From Candidatus Alloenteromonas pullistercoris (GTDB lineage Bacteria > Bacillota_I > Bacilli_A > RFN20 > CAG-826), in the NCBI GenBank assembly GCA_017694295.1, contig JADINA010000034.1, positions 1 through 34,262 on the forward strand: 34,262 nt of DNA, in the 5' to 3' direction. Each line of letters begins with the position of its first letter. Position 1 is the stretch's first letter. The position numbers and the translations under genes are program-made. Of the stretch, positions 26,732 through 33,929 are shown in pieces. The notes beneath the pieces were generated by a model. That model saw only the letters and a program-made list of their open reading frames with translations, made no database searches and was not told the DNA's origin.

Positions 26732-26815
26732 GCGGACATGGCGTAATGGAAGCCGCGATAGACTTAGGATCTATTGGGGAGACCCGTGCAGGTTCGAATC
26801 CTGTTGTCCGCACCA
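26732..26815 (+). tRNA. tRNA-Leu (UAG)
   Basis: Acceptor GCGGACA (26732-26738) pairs with TGTCCGC (26805-26811), followed by A and an encoded CCA. Anticodon stem ATAGA/TCTAT encloses CTTAGGA with TAG at 26765-26767. It has the long variable arm (GGG/CCC) of type II tRNAs and a normal T-loop TTCGAAT. Confidence 0.95.
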
Positions 26816-26889: not shown

Positions 26890-27216
26890 ATGGATCCAAA
26901 TTTCAAACCATACAGGACCGGTATGACGATGGTCCTAGAGAGGTACCCCTGCGGAAAAGGGGGCAGCCGCAGTAGAGGAGTCGTCTTCTATCTCTGCAAG
27001 TGCGACTGCGGGAAGGAGTTCATCGTCACCGGCGACGAGCTATCGAAGCATCCCTATTCCTGCGGATGCACCCCCAAGCCCTCTCCTGTTGGGCGCCCCC
27101 ACGACTGGGCCGTCGGCTTCAAGGGCAGGAGGCTCCAGCTCGTCGGCAAGGACGGGAACGTCGCGAAGATCCCATCAAAGACGGCGATCGACGTGTACGT
27201 TACGAGAAAAGGGTAA
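26890..27216 (+). CDS. Zinc-ribbon protein of AP2/homing-endonuclease type, stopped early
   Basis: This 108-residue product has four cysteines in a ribbon: LCKCDCGKEF and then YSCGC, preceded by GKGGSRSRGVVF. This is the usual N-terminal module of phage and mobile AP2-domain or HNH-type DNA-binding proteins. It ends at TAA 27214-27216, but the same frame continues without a break for 55 more codons to TAA 27379-27381. The stop lies inside the loop of a long inverted repeat. No ribosome binding site is evident before the ATG. It probably represents an originally longer (about 163 aa) protein. Confidence 0.6.
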   Translation: MDPNFKPYRTGMTMVLERYPCGKGGSRSRGVVFYLCKCDCGKEFIVTGDELSKHPYSCGCTPKPSPVGRPHDWAVGFKGRRLQLVGKDGNVAKIPSKTAIDVYVTRKG

Positions 27217-27494: not shown

Positions 27495-28205
27495 CTAGGC
27501 CTTCGGAGCGCTCTTTGAGAAAAGGCGTTTGTATAGTTCCCTGAAGACGCCGTTGAACCTGTCCTCGCCATCAAAGACAAAGGCAAAGTTCGTCAGATTA
27601 TGGAAGGCGACGCAAAGGTGGTCGAACAGCTTGGAGGCTATTTGTATAAAGGCCTCCGTGATCGGATAATCCTGGTTCGGGCCGACCAAGGAGGTCGAGG
27701 TGATGGTGCAATGGACCATCTTGTCCAAGTAGGCCTCCTTCCATCTGACTATATCGTTAAAGCCTGCGAACATGAGCATCTTCCTTTCGTTATAGCCCTT
27801 TTCGATCCAGCCATAATCAAGATAGGGAAAGGCTTCGCGCTTGTATGACCCGTAGTTCTCGGAGATCCTTCGCTTCTGCTCTTCCTTCTCCAGGTCCATT
27901 ATCGCTGTCCTGAATTTGTGGTGGTCTATATAGGCAGGACGCAATTCCGGGCGTTCCACCAAAATGGACGAGATCGCTACCTGCTCGGTCAATTGCCTGA
28001 GCAGCGCCCCGGCTTGGACGAGGGCGATTTCCTGCATGGCGAGGCAAAAGACCTCCACGGATTTATAGGCGTCAAGCATCACCGAGAGGATGTATTTGTT
28101 TTCGTTTCCAAGCTTATCGAAATAACGGAGGTATAAAATCTCCGTTATGTCATGCGAAATAGAATGCATCGATGCTAGTATGTCTCGGAATAGATCTGTG
28201 TCCAT
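27495..28205 (-). CDS. Uncharacterised helical protein, possibly DUF5677/HEPN-like
   Basis: This 236-residue protein is predicted mostly helical. The segment VQAGALLRQLTEQVAISSIL with later HHKFRTAIMDLEKEEQ recalls DUF5677-like and HEPN-type helical proteins, but the match is weak and no RxxxxH RNase motif is obvious. AAGGAG lies 7 bases before ATG 28205, and TATAAT is found upstream on the same strand at 28229-28234. It is divergent from the FRG genes. Its position in an island rich in nuclease-like genes hints at a defence or mobile-element role, by association only. Confidence 0.6.
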   Translation of the reverse strand: MDTDLFRDILASMHSISHDITEILYLRYFDKLGNENKYILSVMLDAYKSVEVFCLAMQEIALVQAGALLRQLTEQVAISSILVERPELRPAYIDHHKFRTAIMDLEKEEQKRRISENYGSYKREAFPYLDYGWIEKGYNERKMLMFAGFNDIVRWKEAYLDKMVHCTITSTSLVGPNQDYPITEAFIQIASKLFDHLCVAFHNLTNFAFVFDGEDRFNGVFRELYKRLFSKSAPKA

Positions 28206-28427: not shown

Positions 28428-29651
28428 ATGGCTGACGGCAAGGAACGCGTATCTCCGAACGAGGAATTATATGACCAATTCTTCTCTTTCAAAGAGATGA
28501 AGTTGCTTAACATTTCAAAGTTTATTTTCGCGGAGGACACAACTTATCTTGCCGATTCGCTAACGCATCTGAGCGATCTGAAGAGTGAAATCTTAAGCGA
28601 TTTGGAATCGCACCTGGACCGGGAACGATGGGGATCGCTCTCAGATTTGGAGAAGTATGCAAATTTCTCTAATGGTTCTCCTGAACGGAGCGATATAGAA
28701 GATTCCTTCCGTGATGTTCTTCCAGCTATTCGCGAATCAATAAGGCGCCAGTTATACAAAGCACTTGATCGAGATTTCGGTCTTAAGTTCGATCTGGAAC
28801 TCGGGGAAGAGTTATCCCCCGACGAACTGCCGATTAAGCTTGCGAGCGAAGGCAAAACACCTATCTTCTTCGGACAAAAGGAGATTGTTTACAGCATAGG
28901 GCCATCGATGTTCCTGAGGCAGCAAACCCCAAGCGGATTCAAAGGGGTCATTTACGATACTCGTTCCTTATTCAGCCTATATGAAGAGGGTGGATATTCT
29001 CGGTCTTTGATCGAAAGATACAACGGTGCGTTCAAAGAAAACATCGTAAGGCCGAATCAAATGGACTATAAATTCCTCTCATGGATGCAGAATTCCGCCT
29101 CTTTCAGTCCGCTCATGGATTTCACTGAAGATTATCTGATCGCTTTGATTGAAGTCCTCGGCACAAGAAACCCAACCGCGTTCCTTTATGCCGATTCTGC
29201 GATTTACTCATTGACGGTCCCGAAAGCATGCATCATTAACGACGAAGCAAGCATCAATGATCTTATTAAAAATATAACATGGAATATTTACAACCTTAAA
29301 AGCGGAATCGTTCCCGGAATAGCGCATAAGGTAAGAAGCAGGCTGGGATATGATTTCATGTTGGATTTCGGATCATATCGAAAGATCGCAAACCTTCTCT
29401 TTCCGCGGGTCCTGGTATTTAACGTGGCTTCTAACGACAATACGCATAGAAAGCGGGGGAGATATGTTTTTTTCTACGACTATGTCGCCGTGAACGGAAA
29501 GATATTCCCCGTGTTCAAAGAAGGCGCAAAACTAAAAAGGCAGATGATCGAATGCCGAAGCAAGCTGGCGATGAGGGAATGGATGAGGAATAATCGCCCG
29601 ATGATAAGAAAGGCCTATTTGGAAGATCCGCGCCTGGAATTCGGCCTATGA
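28428..29651 (+). CDS. FRG-domain-like protein, degenerate at key positions
   Basis: This 407-residue protein is clearly paralogous to its downstream neighbour: shared YDQFFSF near the N-terminus, IGPSM, an FSPLMDFTEDY block (226-236) and a C-terminal FFYDY-VNGK region. The canonical FRG landmarks are altered. The YRGQ arginine is replaced (FFGQ, 147-150), the Gln-His pair is QN (221-222), and the NDR...Q..G motif reads NDN...RG. If the FRG fold is catalytic, this copy should be inactive and may be structural or inhibitory. AGGGGG lies 8 bases before the ATG. It is the first gene of the FRG-FRG-HNH cluster. Confidence 0.7.
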   Translation: MADGKERVSPNEELYDQFFSFKEMKLLNISKFIFAEDTTYLADSLTHLSDLKSEILSDLESHLDRERWGSLSDLEKYANFSNGSPERSDIEDSFRDVLPAIRESIRRQLYKALDRDFGLKFDLELGEELSPDELPIKLASEGKTPIFFGQKEIVYSIGPSMFLRQQTPSGFKGVIYDTRSLFSLYEEGGYSRSLIERYNGAFKENIVRPNQMDYKFLSWMQNSASFSPLMDFTEDYLIALIEVLGTRNPTAFLYADSAIYSLTVPKACIINDEASINDLIKNITWNIYNLKSGIVPGIAHKVRSRLGYDFMLDFGSYRKIANLLFPRVLVFNVASNDNTHRKRGRYVFFYDYVAVNGKIFPVFKEGAKLKRQMIECRSKLAMREWMRNNRPMIRKAYLEDPRLEFGL

Positions 29652-29669
29652 GAGGAGTGGGGTGCGAAA

Positions 29670-30932
29670 ATGGAATCTGACTATTCTGTTTTATATGACC
29701 TCGCAGAGAGGATGCAAGGTTCGAGAGACGATGGACCATCGAATTACGACCAATTCTTTTCTTTTGCGGAAATGGGGCTAAGGGAAATAAATAATTTCCT
29801 CTATGACGGATCGGAGCCAAGCGAAGCCAAAGGCATCAAGCTTTCCAGCATCGAGTCCGTACTGAACTATGAACTCGGAAGATTGGACCTTAATCCTGGT
29901 TTGTTAAAAGAATCCTTAAATTCCCCTCGGTTTCAAAAAGAGACGAGCGGAAGTGGGCGGTTTCCGGCAGTATTCGATAGCAGGGTGAGGAGCGTTCTTC
30001 GTTCACTGGCCAGGCGCTGTTTGTATTCCGCTTTGGATAAAGACCTTGGCGCCAATTATAACAATGAGCAGGGCGATCAGATTGAATTCGCTAAGAAACA
30101 AATCGACCCATCCAAGCACGGCAAGTTATATTATCGCGGCCAATCCGATTATTCCTGGACGATAGTCCCAAGCATGGTCAGGAATTTGATCATAAGGGAT
30201 GGAAGAGGCGCGGTCTATGATGGCGTTTGCCTCAATGTGGGAGGCTTCTTTCATCTTTATTACGAAAACGGATATTCGGATTCCCTTATAAAGAAATACA
30301 ACAAATATTATGGACCAAAACCCGTTTTGAACCCTGACGATATTGATTATCGCTTCCTCGCATGGATGCAACACACCACCGAGTATAGCCCGTTGGTGGA
30401 TTTCACAAGCGACTATTGTGTAGCCGCGTCATTCGCGGTAAACGCAAAAAACCCAAACGCTTTCCTGGACGTTGATTCCGCCGTATATATTTATGAATTG
30501 CCTGATGGAGTTGATCCTATTGACGACATTAGACAAATAGATGGGATCGTCTCGAAAATGGAGATTGCGGTGACCAATAAGAAAATCGTACCTGGGTCTA
30601 GCGTGGTGGCGTTCGATCTTCACACGGGGGTCGGCAAGATTGTCAGCCATATGCGATACAAGGAAATCGTTGATAACCTTGTCCCTAAGTATGCCGTCAT
30701 CGACATCATGCCTAATGATAGGATGCTCCGTCAAAAGGGAAAATTCATACTCCTATATGATTATGAAATCGTGAACGGAAAGACATTTGATAAACTTGAA
30801 GGTTTGGCCAAAGTCAAAAAGCACCTTATTAAAGCAAACGAGAAGAAGGAATTGCTGGAATGGCTCCATGAACAGCATCCGGAGGTTGATATGCCGTTCC
30901 TTATGAATCCTTATCTTGATTTCGAGGATTGA
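29670..30932 (+). CDS. FRG-domain protein with intact motifs
   Basis: This 420-residue protein carries the FRG domain (Pfam PF08867) at about 150-360. LYYRGQSDYSWTIVPSMVR (RGQ 156-158), WMQHTTEYSPLVDFTSDY (Q234, H235, D244) and NDRMLRQKGKF (349-359) keep the family's conserved residues. The N-terminal 140 residues are helical and shared with the upstream paralogue. FRG domains are common in phage, mobile and defence-associated genes, but their activity is not established. It begins 18 bases after the upstream stop, so the pair is one operon; the HNH gene follows 112 bases later. Confidence 0.82.
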   Translation: MESDYSVLYDLAERMQGSRDDGPSNYDQFFSFAEMGLREINNFLYDGSEPSEAKGIKLSSIESVLNYELGRLDLNPGLLKESLNSPRFQKETSGSGRFPAVFDSRVRSVLRSLARRCLYSALDKDLGANYNNEQGDQIEFAKKQIDPSKHGKLYYRGQSDYSWTIVPSMVRNLIIRDGRGAVYDGVCLNVGGFFHLYYENGYSDSLIKKYNKYYGPKPVLNPDDIDYRFLAWMQHTTEYSPLVDFTSDYCVAASFAVNAKNPNAFLDVDSAVYIYELPDGVDPIDDIRQIDGIVSKMEIAVTNKKIVPGSSVVAFDLHTGVGKIVSHMRYKEIVDNLVPKYAVIDIMPNDRMLRQKGKFILLYDYEIVNGKTFDKLEGLAKVKKHLIKANEKKELLEWLHEQHPEVDMPFLMNPYLDFED

Positions 30933-31044
30933 TAGAAAAAACCTTATATGTGCTGAGTTTTGTTCAATAGGTGGGGAGAGCCTGACGAACAAATAATTAT
31001 ATGGGATTCCGCCATTTTATATTTAGCAAATAGGAGAAGGTGAT

Positions 31045-32043
31045 ATGTTTGATGCTAAAAGCAAGGAGTATTTCGACTCGAACTATGACACCGTTTTCGA
31101 CTACGAACAAAGAACGGTTAAGGGTGGATGCGAAATATGGGATGTAACAAACGGCGTTTCCTTGGGGAAACACTTATTCTATTTTAAAGATTCTTCCTGC
31201 ACGTGCCGTTTTTGCGGAAAAACGAAGCCGGAAGCCAAGTTCAAAGACAAAGCCCATACCTACCCGGAATTCATGGGAAACAAGCTCTTTGTTAGCAAGA
31301 ATAACGAGTGTGATGCCTGCAACCATGCTTTTGGAGAAGGCAACGAAGCTCATTTGCGGGCCATGCTATCTCCGTACCTTGTTTTCAACGACATCAAGGG
31401 AAAACGTGGGCAGGCAAAGTACAAATCGTCAGACGAATCAACGACGGCAACCACCGAAAACGGTTGCATGAGAGTAACCGAAATAGAGGGGAGCGGAAAT
31501 TTCTCTATCGACGAGAAGAAAAAGAAATTTACGTATTCTATGGAGATCCCTTCCTACTCTAGGCACAAAGTCTATAAAGCCTTGTTGAAAATGGCTTTGG
31601 CTTCCTTGGGCGAAGCGGATTATGCAGATACCAAAATATGTCAAAGCCTTCTAAAAAGCGATGAGCCTCTTGGCTGCGAATTTTTTCTTTTTGAGCAGTT
31701 TCCCGGATTCGGGTTTTTCAATTTTCAAGTCTCTTTGTTCAAAAGGAAACAATCGTCGAGCCAACCCACATATCAATTCATCATCAGAAACCAAAATTTC
31801 TTGTTCCAGATTCCTTTTAATTCCGATACGGATATTGAAAGTTTGAAAGGGACGGGGCAGCACATTGAAATTGCCCCTGTGCCCACTCGCTTCGATCGTT
31901 CGGTCAACGGTAATGCAAAAGTTTGCTTGTGTTACCCAAATGACATGGTCGAAGTTGAGAAACATAAGCGTTGTTTGGAATTTGGTTTTGACAGCGCCTC
32001 AATGCAAGAATGTTTAACGACTGACACGACTTCCAAACTTTAG
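31045..32043 (+). CDS. HNH endonuclease-like protein
   Basis: This 332-residue protein has an N-terminal treble-clef HNH module: CRFC (54-57), AHTYPEFMGN with H71, P74 and N79, and CDACNHAFG (C89, C92, N93). This is the HNH_5-type arrangement. Residues 110-332 are unrecognised and may give substrate or partner specificity. GGAGAAGGTGAT lies just before the ATG. It follows the FRG pair on the same strand, with no terminator in the 112-base gap, so cotranscription is likely. It could be a DNA-cleaving effector of the cluster. The DNA is AT-rich. Confidence 0.8.
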   Translation: MFDAKSKEYFDSNYDTVFDYEQRTVKGGCEIWDVTNGVSLGKHLFYFKDSSCTCRFCGKTKPEAKFKDKAHTYPEFMGNKLFVSKNNECDACNHAFGEGNEAHLRAMLSPYLVFNDIKGKRGQAKYKSSDESTTATTENGCMRVTEIEGSGNFSIDEKKKKFTYSMEIPSYSRHKVYKALLKMALASLGEADYADTKICQSLLKSDEPLGCEFFLFEQFPGFGFFNFQVSLFKRKQSSSQPTYQFIIRNQNFLFQIPFNSDTDIESLKGTGQHIEIAPVPTRFDRSVNGNAKVCLCYPNDMVEVEKHKRCLEFGFDSASMQECLTTDTTSKL

Positions 32044-32560: not shown

Positions 32561-32962
32561 TCAAAGGCATCCGCCCGGCGTAAGCACTATTTTCGTATGC
32601 TTGAATCCGCGGTTCTTGGAACTGCACTCCATGACTATCAAATAGTCATCTTCGCCATCTGCCTTCATGACTACCCCTTGAGAGTATGGCGTTTTCCATA
32701 GAGGTTTAACGCCATAATAGGGGGCAACGACTTTGTTGGTTGGATTAGGGCTATCGACGCTGAAACCGTTTTCGAATAGCCAAGCATGGTAATTCTTCAA
32801 TGCCGGAGGGGCACCCATGACGGCGCAAGCCTCGAAGATGGCGGCCTGCGTTTCGATTTCCTCATCCATGTTGATCACGTACTTCTCGGTCGGGTCTAGT
32901 TCGTATTTATGGGCAGAAAAGTCCGGTTTTCCGAAGTCTTCATTCAGCCTTATCTTCTTCAT
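32561..32962 (-). CDS. Unrecognised 133-aa protein paired with DUF4365
   Basis: This 133-residue acidic protein has AAGGAGGA about 8 bases before ATG 32962 and overlaps the end of the DUF4365 gene by 23 bases, so the two are coupled. It starts MKKIRLNEDFGKPDF and ends with a strand-rich DDYLIVMECSSKNRG region. No domain was recognised. The pairing with a nuclease-like protein allows an antitoxin, immunity or regulatory role, as inference only. Confidence 0.65.
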   Translation of the reverse strand: MKKIRLNEDFGKPDFSAHKYELDPTEKYVINMDEEIETQAAIFEACAVMGAPPALKNYHAWLFENGFSVDSPNPTNKVVAPYYGVKPLWKTPYSQGVVMKADGEDDYLIVMECSSKNRGFKHTKIVLTPGGCL

Positions 32963-33929
32963 CTTCGCTTCCTCCTTCTGGCCGAGCCTCTGAGTAATGT
33001 TGGGGCCGAGACACGAATTCGTCGACTTTCAAGAATGCTTCCCCCAACTCGTTAAGGCTGAGTATCATCATATATTCCGCCACCTCCCCAGAATGGTCGA
33101 TACTTCTCATGGGATCCAGTTTCTCTCTGAATTCCTCGAACGTGTCGCCCACGATAAGCCATTCGCGATCCTCCTTGTCGTAATAGCAGTGGTATTCCCT
33201 CCAAAGCGCTTCGTCCTGATCCTCAAAGAAATCCCCGTCGGCCGAGAAATTTGCCCAAGGGAATAACTTGGGGAAAACCTCTGTGTAGGGCGTATAAGGG
33301 AACCAATATGGATACGAATACGTTTGAATGCTCTTGCCGTCATTCACGATAAGCTCTGTGTCGCCTCTTCCGCTGCTTTTGTTGACCCACTCTTCGGAAT
33401 GCAGCTTGACCTCGCCGCCATCCTTGATGATCTGCATGAACCTTTTCTGGGAAAGCAGGAAGTTGTAGTTCCTGACATGTTCGGGCAGGTTGGTGAAGGA
33501 AAGGAGCTTTTTCTGCGAGCGTTCGTCTAAGAAAATCTGGTTCATGGGGACTCTCACGACGAACCCTGTCCCTTGCCCGTTCTTGGTCTTCTCGATCGTT
33601 TGGTCTGTCAGTTTTTGCCAGATGCAGATATCGTCTTCCGGGTTATACAGGACGATGATGCAAGGCAATGAGTTCATTGCCCAATAATTGTATTGCCTCT
33701 GGTTCATACTTCTTAATATTACACAGCCATCTTTTTTCTCTTTGAACCAGCTTGCTCCGGATTTTATCTGGAGGGCGAGGAGCTGCCTTTGCTTCCCGGT
33801 TGGGTCTGTCAGTTCCATGTGGGCATCGATCCCAACATCATCAGTAGGTTGCTCCCTGAACATCCAATGGTTTCTTTCGGCGATTTCGCCAACGTGATGA
33901 ACACCACGCCTTTCAATTGAATTAGCCAT
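32940..33929 (-). CDS. DUF4365 domain protein (PD-(D/E)XK nuclease-like)
   Basis: This 329-residue protein has an N-terminal DUF4365 domain (about 5-150). GEIAERNHW supplies the first conserved glutamate (E15), TDDVGIDAHMEL the central aspartate (D35), and LLALQIKSG the Q-x-K element (Q54, K56) typical of restriction-endonuclease-like folds. DUF4365 proteins occur in defence islands, alone or fused to NTPases. The C-terminal half is not recognised, and the last 20 residues are Glu/Asp-rich. AAGGAGGA lies 6 bases before ATG 33929. It forms an operon with the 133-residue protein. Confidence 0.82.
   Translation of the reverse strand: MANSIERRGVHHVGEIAERNHWMFREQPTDDVGIDAHMELTDPTGKQRQLLALQIKSGASWFKEKKDGCVILRSMNQRQYNYWAMNSLPCIIVLYNPEDDICIWQKLTDQTIEKTKNGQGTGFVVRVPMNQIFLDERSQKKLLSFTNLPEHVRNYNFLLSQKRFMQIIKDGGEVKLHSEEWVNKSSGRGDTELIVNDGKSIQTYSYPYWFPYTPYTEVFPKLFPWANFSADGDFFEDQDEALWREYHCYYDKEDREWLIVGDTFEEFREKLDPMRSIDHSGEVAEYMMILSLNELGEAFLKVDEFVSRPQHYSEARPEGGSEDEEDKAE

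Follow-up and report, generated by a model that had tools for sequence, protein, structure and literature searches.

A degenerate FRG gene beside an intact paralogue in Candidatus Alloenteromonas pullistercoris: a possible inactive partner for an ADP-ribosyltransferase-superfamily effector

Two adjacent genes of Candidatus Alloenteromonas pullistercoris, here called FRG1 and FRG2, encode paralogues of the FRG family, of which only FRG2 retains all the residues that are nearly invariant among FRG proteins. The genes lie in a window of 34,262 nucleotides, the whole stretch of DNA that was analysed (assembly GCA_017694295.1, contig JADINA010000034.1, positions 1 to 34,262 of the forward strand). 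FRG1 (28428..29651, 407 amino acids) and FRG2 (29670..30932, 420 amino acids) are followed by an HNH nuclease gene, and the three form intact open reading frames (ORFs) on the + strand within positions 28428-32043.

Tentatively, and judging from the sequences, FRG2 may be an active effector that is held in check by its dead paralogue, FRG1, until infection. FRG2 would be an FRG-domain enzyme of the ADP-ribosyltransferase (ART) superfamily, with NAD+ consumption or ADP-ribose transfer as its activity; once triggered, most likely by a phage, it would harm or stall the cell. FRG1, a predicted pseudoenzyme encoded just before FRG2 and probably on the same transcript, would pair with FRG2, or occupy a ligand site that the two once shared, and would in this way keep FRG2 inactive. 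The HNH gene is probably cargo unconnected with the pair. With rather less assurance, the arrangement suggests that the active enzyme of a defence or toxin operon may be controlled directly by a pseudoenzyme partner from its own FRG/ART family, as opposed to an unrelated antitoxin.

Paralogy and conserved residues of FRG1 and FRG2

FRG1 and FRG2 align as whole-length paralogues with 33% identity over 409 amino acids (E 6e-62 for the pair), and they have in common an N-terminal YDQFFSF stretch. Only 18 bp (29652..29669, + strand) separate the FRG1 stop codon from the FRG2 ATG, and this gap includes a purine-rich, Shine-Dalgarno-like stretch; the two genes are probably co-transcribed. The two adjacent paralogues of about 410 residues described in the first-pass annotation are thus borne out, with exact ORF positions. 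Profile searches distinguish the two proteins clearly. FRG2 passes the cut-off of the Pfam FRG family, PF08867 (E 3.8e-13; 50.6 bits against a cut-off of 25), whereas FRG1 falls below it (E 0.018; 16.4 bits). FRG2 also matches 13 models of the PADLOC candidate family PDC-S15 at E values of at most 0.042 (best E 1.7e-10), and FRG1 matches one (E 0.0023); the "S" in this designation presumably denotes a single-gene candidate. Alignment likewise agrees with the earlier assignment of an intact motif set to FRG2 alone, which has RGQ, MQH and NDR...Q.G where FRG1 has FGQ, MQN and NDN...K.G.

An iterative profile search of 43 stretches and the window yielded 45 FRG ORFs of at least 100 amino acids. 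Conservation by column was counted over 42 class-level rows besides FRG1, with FRG2 among them; the second L012 piece, L106, L165, the L166 pieces, L167 and L168 were left out. Eight columns are conserved at 90% or more. In FRG2 numbering these are R156 and G157 (41 of 41 rows each), R171 and Q234 (39/42 each), H235 (42/42), D244 (41/42), R351 (40/42) and Q355 (41/42), and FRG2 holds all eight residues. FRG1 differs at five of them, with F148, L163, N222, N338 and K342 at the positions of R156, R171, H235, R351 and Q355, and retains the conserved G, Q and D. The change from R171 to L163 is the least sure, as FRG1 has an arginine at 164 and another alignment places this stretch differently. Scaffold residues are also retained in FRG1: G149, P159, S160, Q221, D231, T233, A239 and G344.

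Departures from the eight columns are few in the 42 other rows: 36 depart at none and four at one, while L097 departs at two and L104 at four. L104 was considered as a second degenerate FRG protein and rejected by eye, since it keeps RGQ and a histidine and the alignment sets its C-terminal columns wrongly against repeats. On this alignment FRG1 alone has clearly and selectively lost near-invariant residues of charged and polar type. These residues are presumably catalytic, to judge from their conservation and from the placement of FRG proteins in the ART superfamily.

Upkeep of FRG1 and the rarity of the pair

The first-pass annotation had treated decay of the first FRG gene as an outcome that would speak against a functional pair, and on this the evidence divides: the branch leading to FRG1 is twice as long as that leading to FRG2, but FRG1 carries neither a stop nor a frameshift in its frame of 407 amino acids. 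How much the open frame says was gauged by simulating neutral replacements in FRG1's own codons (200 runs), a procedure that ignores insertions and deletions. At 0.6 replacements per site, approximately the excess of the FRG1 branch over that of FRG2, the mean number of nonsense hits was 13.3 and the minimum 6; at 1.2 replacements per site the mean was 26.3. Because its frame is open where about 13 nonsense hits would be expected under neutrality, FRG1 looks like a maintained pseudoenzyme. The simulation therefore rules out a long neutral past for FRG1 and leaves room for a recent loss of function.

The history of the two genes was examined in a tree of 45 rows, which includes L165, L167 and L168 and omits the second L012 piece, L106, L104 and the L166 pieces. 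FRG1, FRG2 and the FRG protein of L011 form a clade with support of 99/97. The L011 locus belongs to another genus of the same family, and its protein keeps the R, QH and Q residues with NDC in place of NDR. A sister relationship of FRG1 and FRG2 is neither favoured nor rejected (approximately unbiased test, p 0.125); the two copies accordingly stem either from an old duplication or from separate arrivals.

FRG genes were counted from family to phylum level, with the pair's own genome included. Searches with FRG2 found matches in 8 of 224 family genomes, a two-row FRG profile in 10 of 279 order genomes and the Pfam FRG profile in 36 of 392 phylum genomes sampled; at class level, FRG1 matched in 11 of 395 genomes and an 18-row FRG profile in 33 of 395. 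Among these 33 genomes, two adjacent full-length matches occur only in the genome of the pair itself. The two matches in G030 are pieces of one gene, those in G327 lie on different contigs, and G634, G649, G655, G707, G731 and G737 have one match each. An FRG ORF was recovered from 46 of the 47 other FRG stretches, L043 being the exception; L012, L106 and L166 each hold two pieces of one FRG gene. The order of degenerate FRG, FRG and HNH genes that the first-pass annotation proposed to look for elsewhere did not recur, either as a second FRG gene in these 46 loci or as an HNH relative in the 47 stretches.

No relatives came from scans of genome contigs in which the FRG pair or FRG2 served as query, or from scans of viral contigs. 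A search of phages with FRG1 gave no match; FRG2 matched a single phage entry, distantly, and no plasmid. Two degenerate motif patterns applied to viral contigs led to one FRG protein, on phage contig L169, which was confirmed by an FRG profile match and by eye carries TPR-like repeats; matches of these patterns on L170 and L171 lie in other phage genes and were rejected. The L169 protein is a fusion similar to that at L104:5920-9810, in the small genome G581, where an FRG domain appears by eye to be joined to a long TPR-like array. The L104 fusion would comprise 1296 amino acids if TGA is read as Trp, and the FRG match in G581 does contain a TGA codon.

Several results weigh against FRG1 as a restraining partner of FRG2. 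None of the 46 other loci has a second FRG gene, although at seven of them a neighbour could be hidden because less than 1.5 kb of sequence is available on one side (L011, with 174 bp downstream, is one of the seven); active FRG proteins would therefore normally do without a partner. End branches measure 1.23 for FRG1, 0.61 for FRG2 and 0.51 for L011, and the long FRG1 branch, which fits a loss of catalytic constraint, is evidence against strong conservation. FRG1 groups with L011 at 92/65, and its sisterhood with FRG2 is not clear. A scan for promoter-like and terminator-like sites gave no promoter-like one 5' of FRG1, and sequence searches brought up no credible solved relative of FRG proteins (PDB). 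At 0.3 replacements per site, the mean number of simulated nonsense hits falls to 6.5 and the minimum to 0. Much of this suits a different account, in which FRG1 is a decaying duplicate that has lost its active site and has no partner role, the loss being recent relative to the mutation of the lineage: the branch is long, an open frame could survive a modest number of neutral replacements, and the pair is not repeated at other loci. Furthermore, the FRG genes of three other loci of the class (L011, L012 and L166) look interrupted, and FRG genes may therefore often be lost or switched off in the class. Against such decay stand the intact frame, the retained scaffold residues and YDQFFSF stretch, and the concentration of the FRG1 losses on near-invariant charged and polar residues, and on balance this account is rather unlikely.

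The spacing and conservation that suggest inhibition would serve equally well for a partner of the opposite sign, an activating or sensing FRG1 whose dead ART domain, on binding NAD, a phage molecule or an ADP-ribose product, would turn FRG2 on. The available text of PMC12700824 offers a precedent in the NAD-processing sirtuin paralogues FAM118A and FAM118B, which when mixed are strongly active only together. However, mutation of either FAM118 active site abolished activity, according to the same text, and the single FRG genes of the 46 other loci suggest that an activator is not generally needed. An activating role for FRG1 is accordingly judged improbable, a little more so than decay, and inhibition of FRG2 by FRG1 is retained as the working proposal. 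FRG genes are common in this phylum, as the sample indicates, are candidate defence effectors, and by sequence lack a credible solved relative; a natural active-dead pair would lend itself readily to testing what keeps an FRG enzyme silent, and the residues lost in FRG1 point to those worth mutating in FRG2.

The HNH gene and its genomic setting

The HNH gene (31045..32043, + strand, 332 amino acids) starts 112 bp past FRG2 and has a Shine-Dalgarno-like stretch of its own. The nuclease gene that had been placed 3' of the FRG pair on the same strand is confirmed: its product passes the cut-off for HNH_5, PF14279 (E 6.4e-9; 36.1 bits versus 27.5), also matches phrog_26663, and in an alignment with relatives shows Cys pairs and an AHxxPE-GN motif. 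Six plasmid relatives align with it over most of its length.

In a reading close to that of the first-pass annotation, FRG1, FRG2 and the HNH gene would form one defence system with the nuclease as its DNA-cutting effector, which would be compatible with any of the roles considered for FRG1. The three genes are on one strand, and no terminator-like or promoter-like site was found in the 112-bp gap; the scan says little on transcription, however, because its matches overall were no more numerous than in shuffled sequences. Values of GC content at third codon positions (GC3) are similarly low for the three genes (FRG1 0.515, FRG2 0.504, HNH 0.505; standard error about 0.025), as if they had been acquired together. 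Those of the neighbours ORF133, DUF4365 and DUF5677 are 0.582-0.679 (DUF4365 alone 0.606), and the background, from 13 other long ORFs of the window, is 0.689 pooled with a range of 0.559-0.781. At most, the low GC3 of the three would indicate joint acquisition. Distribution speaks against a three-gene system: the HNH protein occurs in 1 of 224 family genomes, its own, and in none of the 223 others, and a seven-sequence HNH profile (E 0.01) found no relative in the 47 other FRG stretches. Matches to the HNH protein were found in 91 plasmid records and two phage records, and in the eight plasmid records inspected an FRG profile found no FRG protein. As the FRG pair is seen once, and HNH relatives were found in none of the 47 other FRG stretches and none of the 223 other family genomes, a three-gene system is unsupported, as is the nuclease as its effector; such a system is the least probable of the readings weighed here, and the HNH gene is probably independent cargo, a mere neighbour of the pair.

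Among the eight inspected plasmid records, one HNH relative lies beside a cluster of restriction-modification and Fic genes and one beside a RES NAD+ phosphorylase gene, and the others are in plasmid, metal-related or transposon settings. In the RES case, a Cupriavidus plasmid (L038:3137-4984), the HNH relative follows 186 bp after the phosphorylase gene, an order that may parallel the placing of the HNH gene behind the FRG genes of the window; RES proteins also belong to the ART superfamily, according to the available text of PMC9503650.

A tRNA-Leu(TAG) gene (26732..26815, + strand), 1.6 kb upstream of FRG1, marks the edge of a variable region. Between the two are an ORF of 108 amino acids (26890..27216) beside the tRNA gene, which matches part of the phage HNH family phrog_374 (E 3.8e-8), and an ORF of 236 amino acids (27495..28205, - strand) that is divergent from FRG1 and has a sub-threshold match to DUF5677 (E 0.0071). 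Downstream of the HNH gene and convergent with it is a gene for a DUF4365 protein (32940..33929, - strand), overlapped by ORF133, an ORF of 133 amino acids (32561..32962, - strand). RarA lies upstream of the tRNA gene, in sister genomes too: of 28 sister tRNA-Leu loci, 16 have it nearby, and among the others are some too short to show it. Beyond the tRNA gene the contents vary. Sixteen sister stretches, one of them lacking any ORF, supplied 113 tRNA-downstream ORFs, and blastp matched none of these to the seven island proteins of the window, while by tblastn the sister genome G022 has a relative of the 108-amino-acid ORF at the same tRNA-Leu. Scans of 59 of the 113 ORFs against PADLOC and Pfam, for which 25 of 32 and 25 of 65 families are listed, found among the matches listed type IIG restriction, PDC-S01, SoFic and other defence models, with one member per model; the commonest Pfam families, again among the matches listed, are glycosyl hydrolase 3 (five members) and nucleoside hydrolase (three). 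The earlier description as a defence island thus holds in part, in that a RarA-tRNA-Leu arrangement common to sisters is followed by varying genes, some of them defence-like, but with families such as these commonest, gene content indicates that the surroundings of the tRNA-Leu are a variable region and not a pure defence island.

Comparison with known FRG, HNH and sirtuin systems

The available text of PMC9503650 assigns Frg to the ART superfamily and suggests for it a role as NADase and antiviral effector, which makes such a role possible for FRG2. The literature covered on FRG, PDC-S15 and PF08867, with most subscription papers outside it, contained no active-dead FRG pair and no mechanism of FRG control. 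By its sequences, the pair appears to be a variant within the known FRG family, represented by a single instance. FRG2 resembles that family in its matches over the Pfam cut-off and to PDC-S15; FRG1 does not, being below the Pfam cut-off and without most of the conserved residues, and a predicted active-dead pair stands here where the 46 other class loci hold one FRG gene. One relative, at L013, is near genes for AIPR, C5 methylase, WYL and CBS proteins, which counts in favour of the proposed effector. The CBS-domain protein (L013:7960-8688) adjoins the FRG gene and has in its N-terminal part an RN..AH motif, which we take to resemble the motif of HEPN ribonucleases.

The HNH protein is like its plasmid relatives over most of its length, and matches HNH_5 and phrog_26663; in the eight plasmid stretches those relatives lie among genes for restriction-modification, plasmid functions, metals or transposons, with FRG genes absent, whereas the protein of the window adjoins an FRG pair. 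For the pair itself a near comparison is with FAM118A and FAM118B, which as described in the available text of PMC12700824 are likewise two paralogues of an NAD-processing family that act together, and which set a precedent for NAD consumption under the control of a paralogue. They differ from the proposed FRG1-FRG2 pair in being vertebrate proteins of the sirtuin family and not the ART superfamily, and in that both of their active sites are needed.

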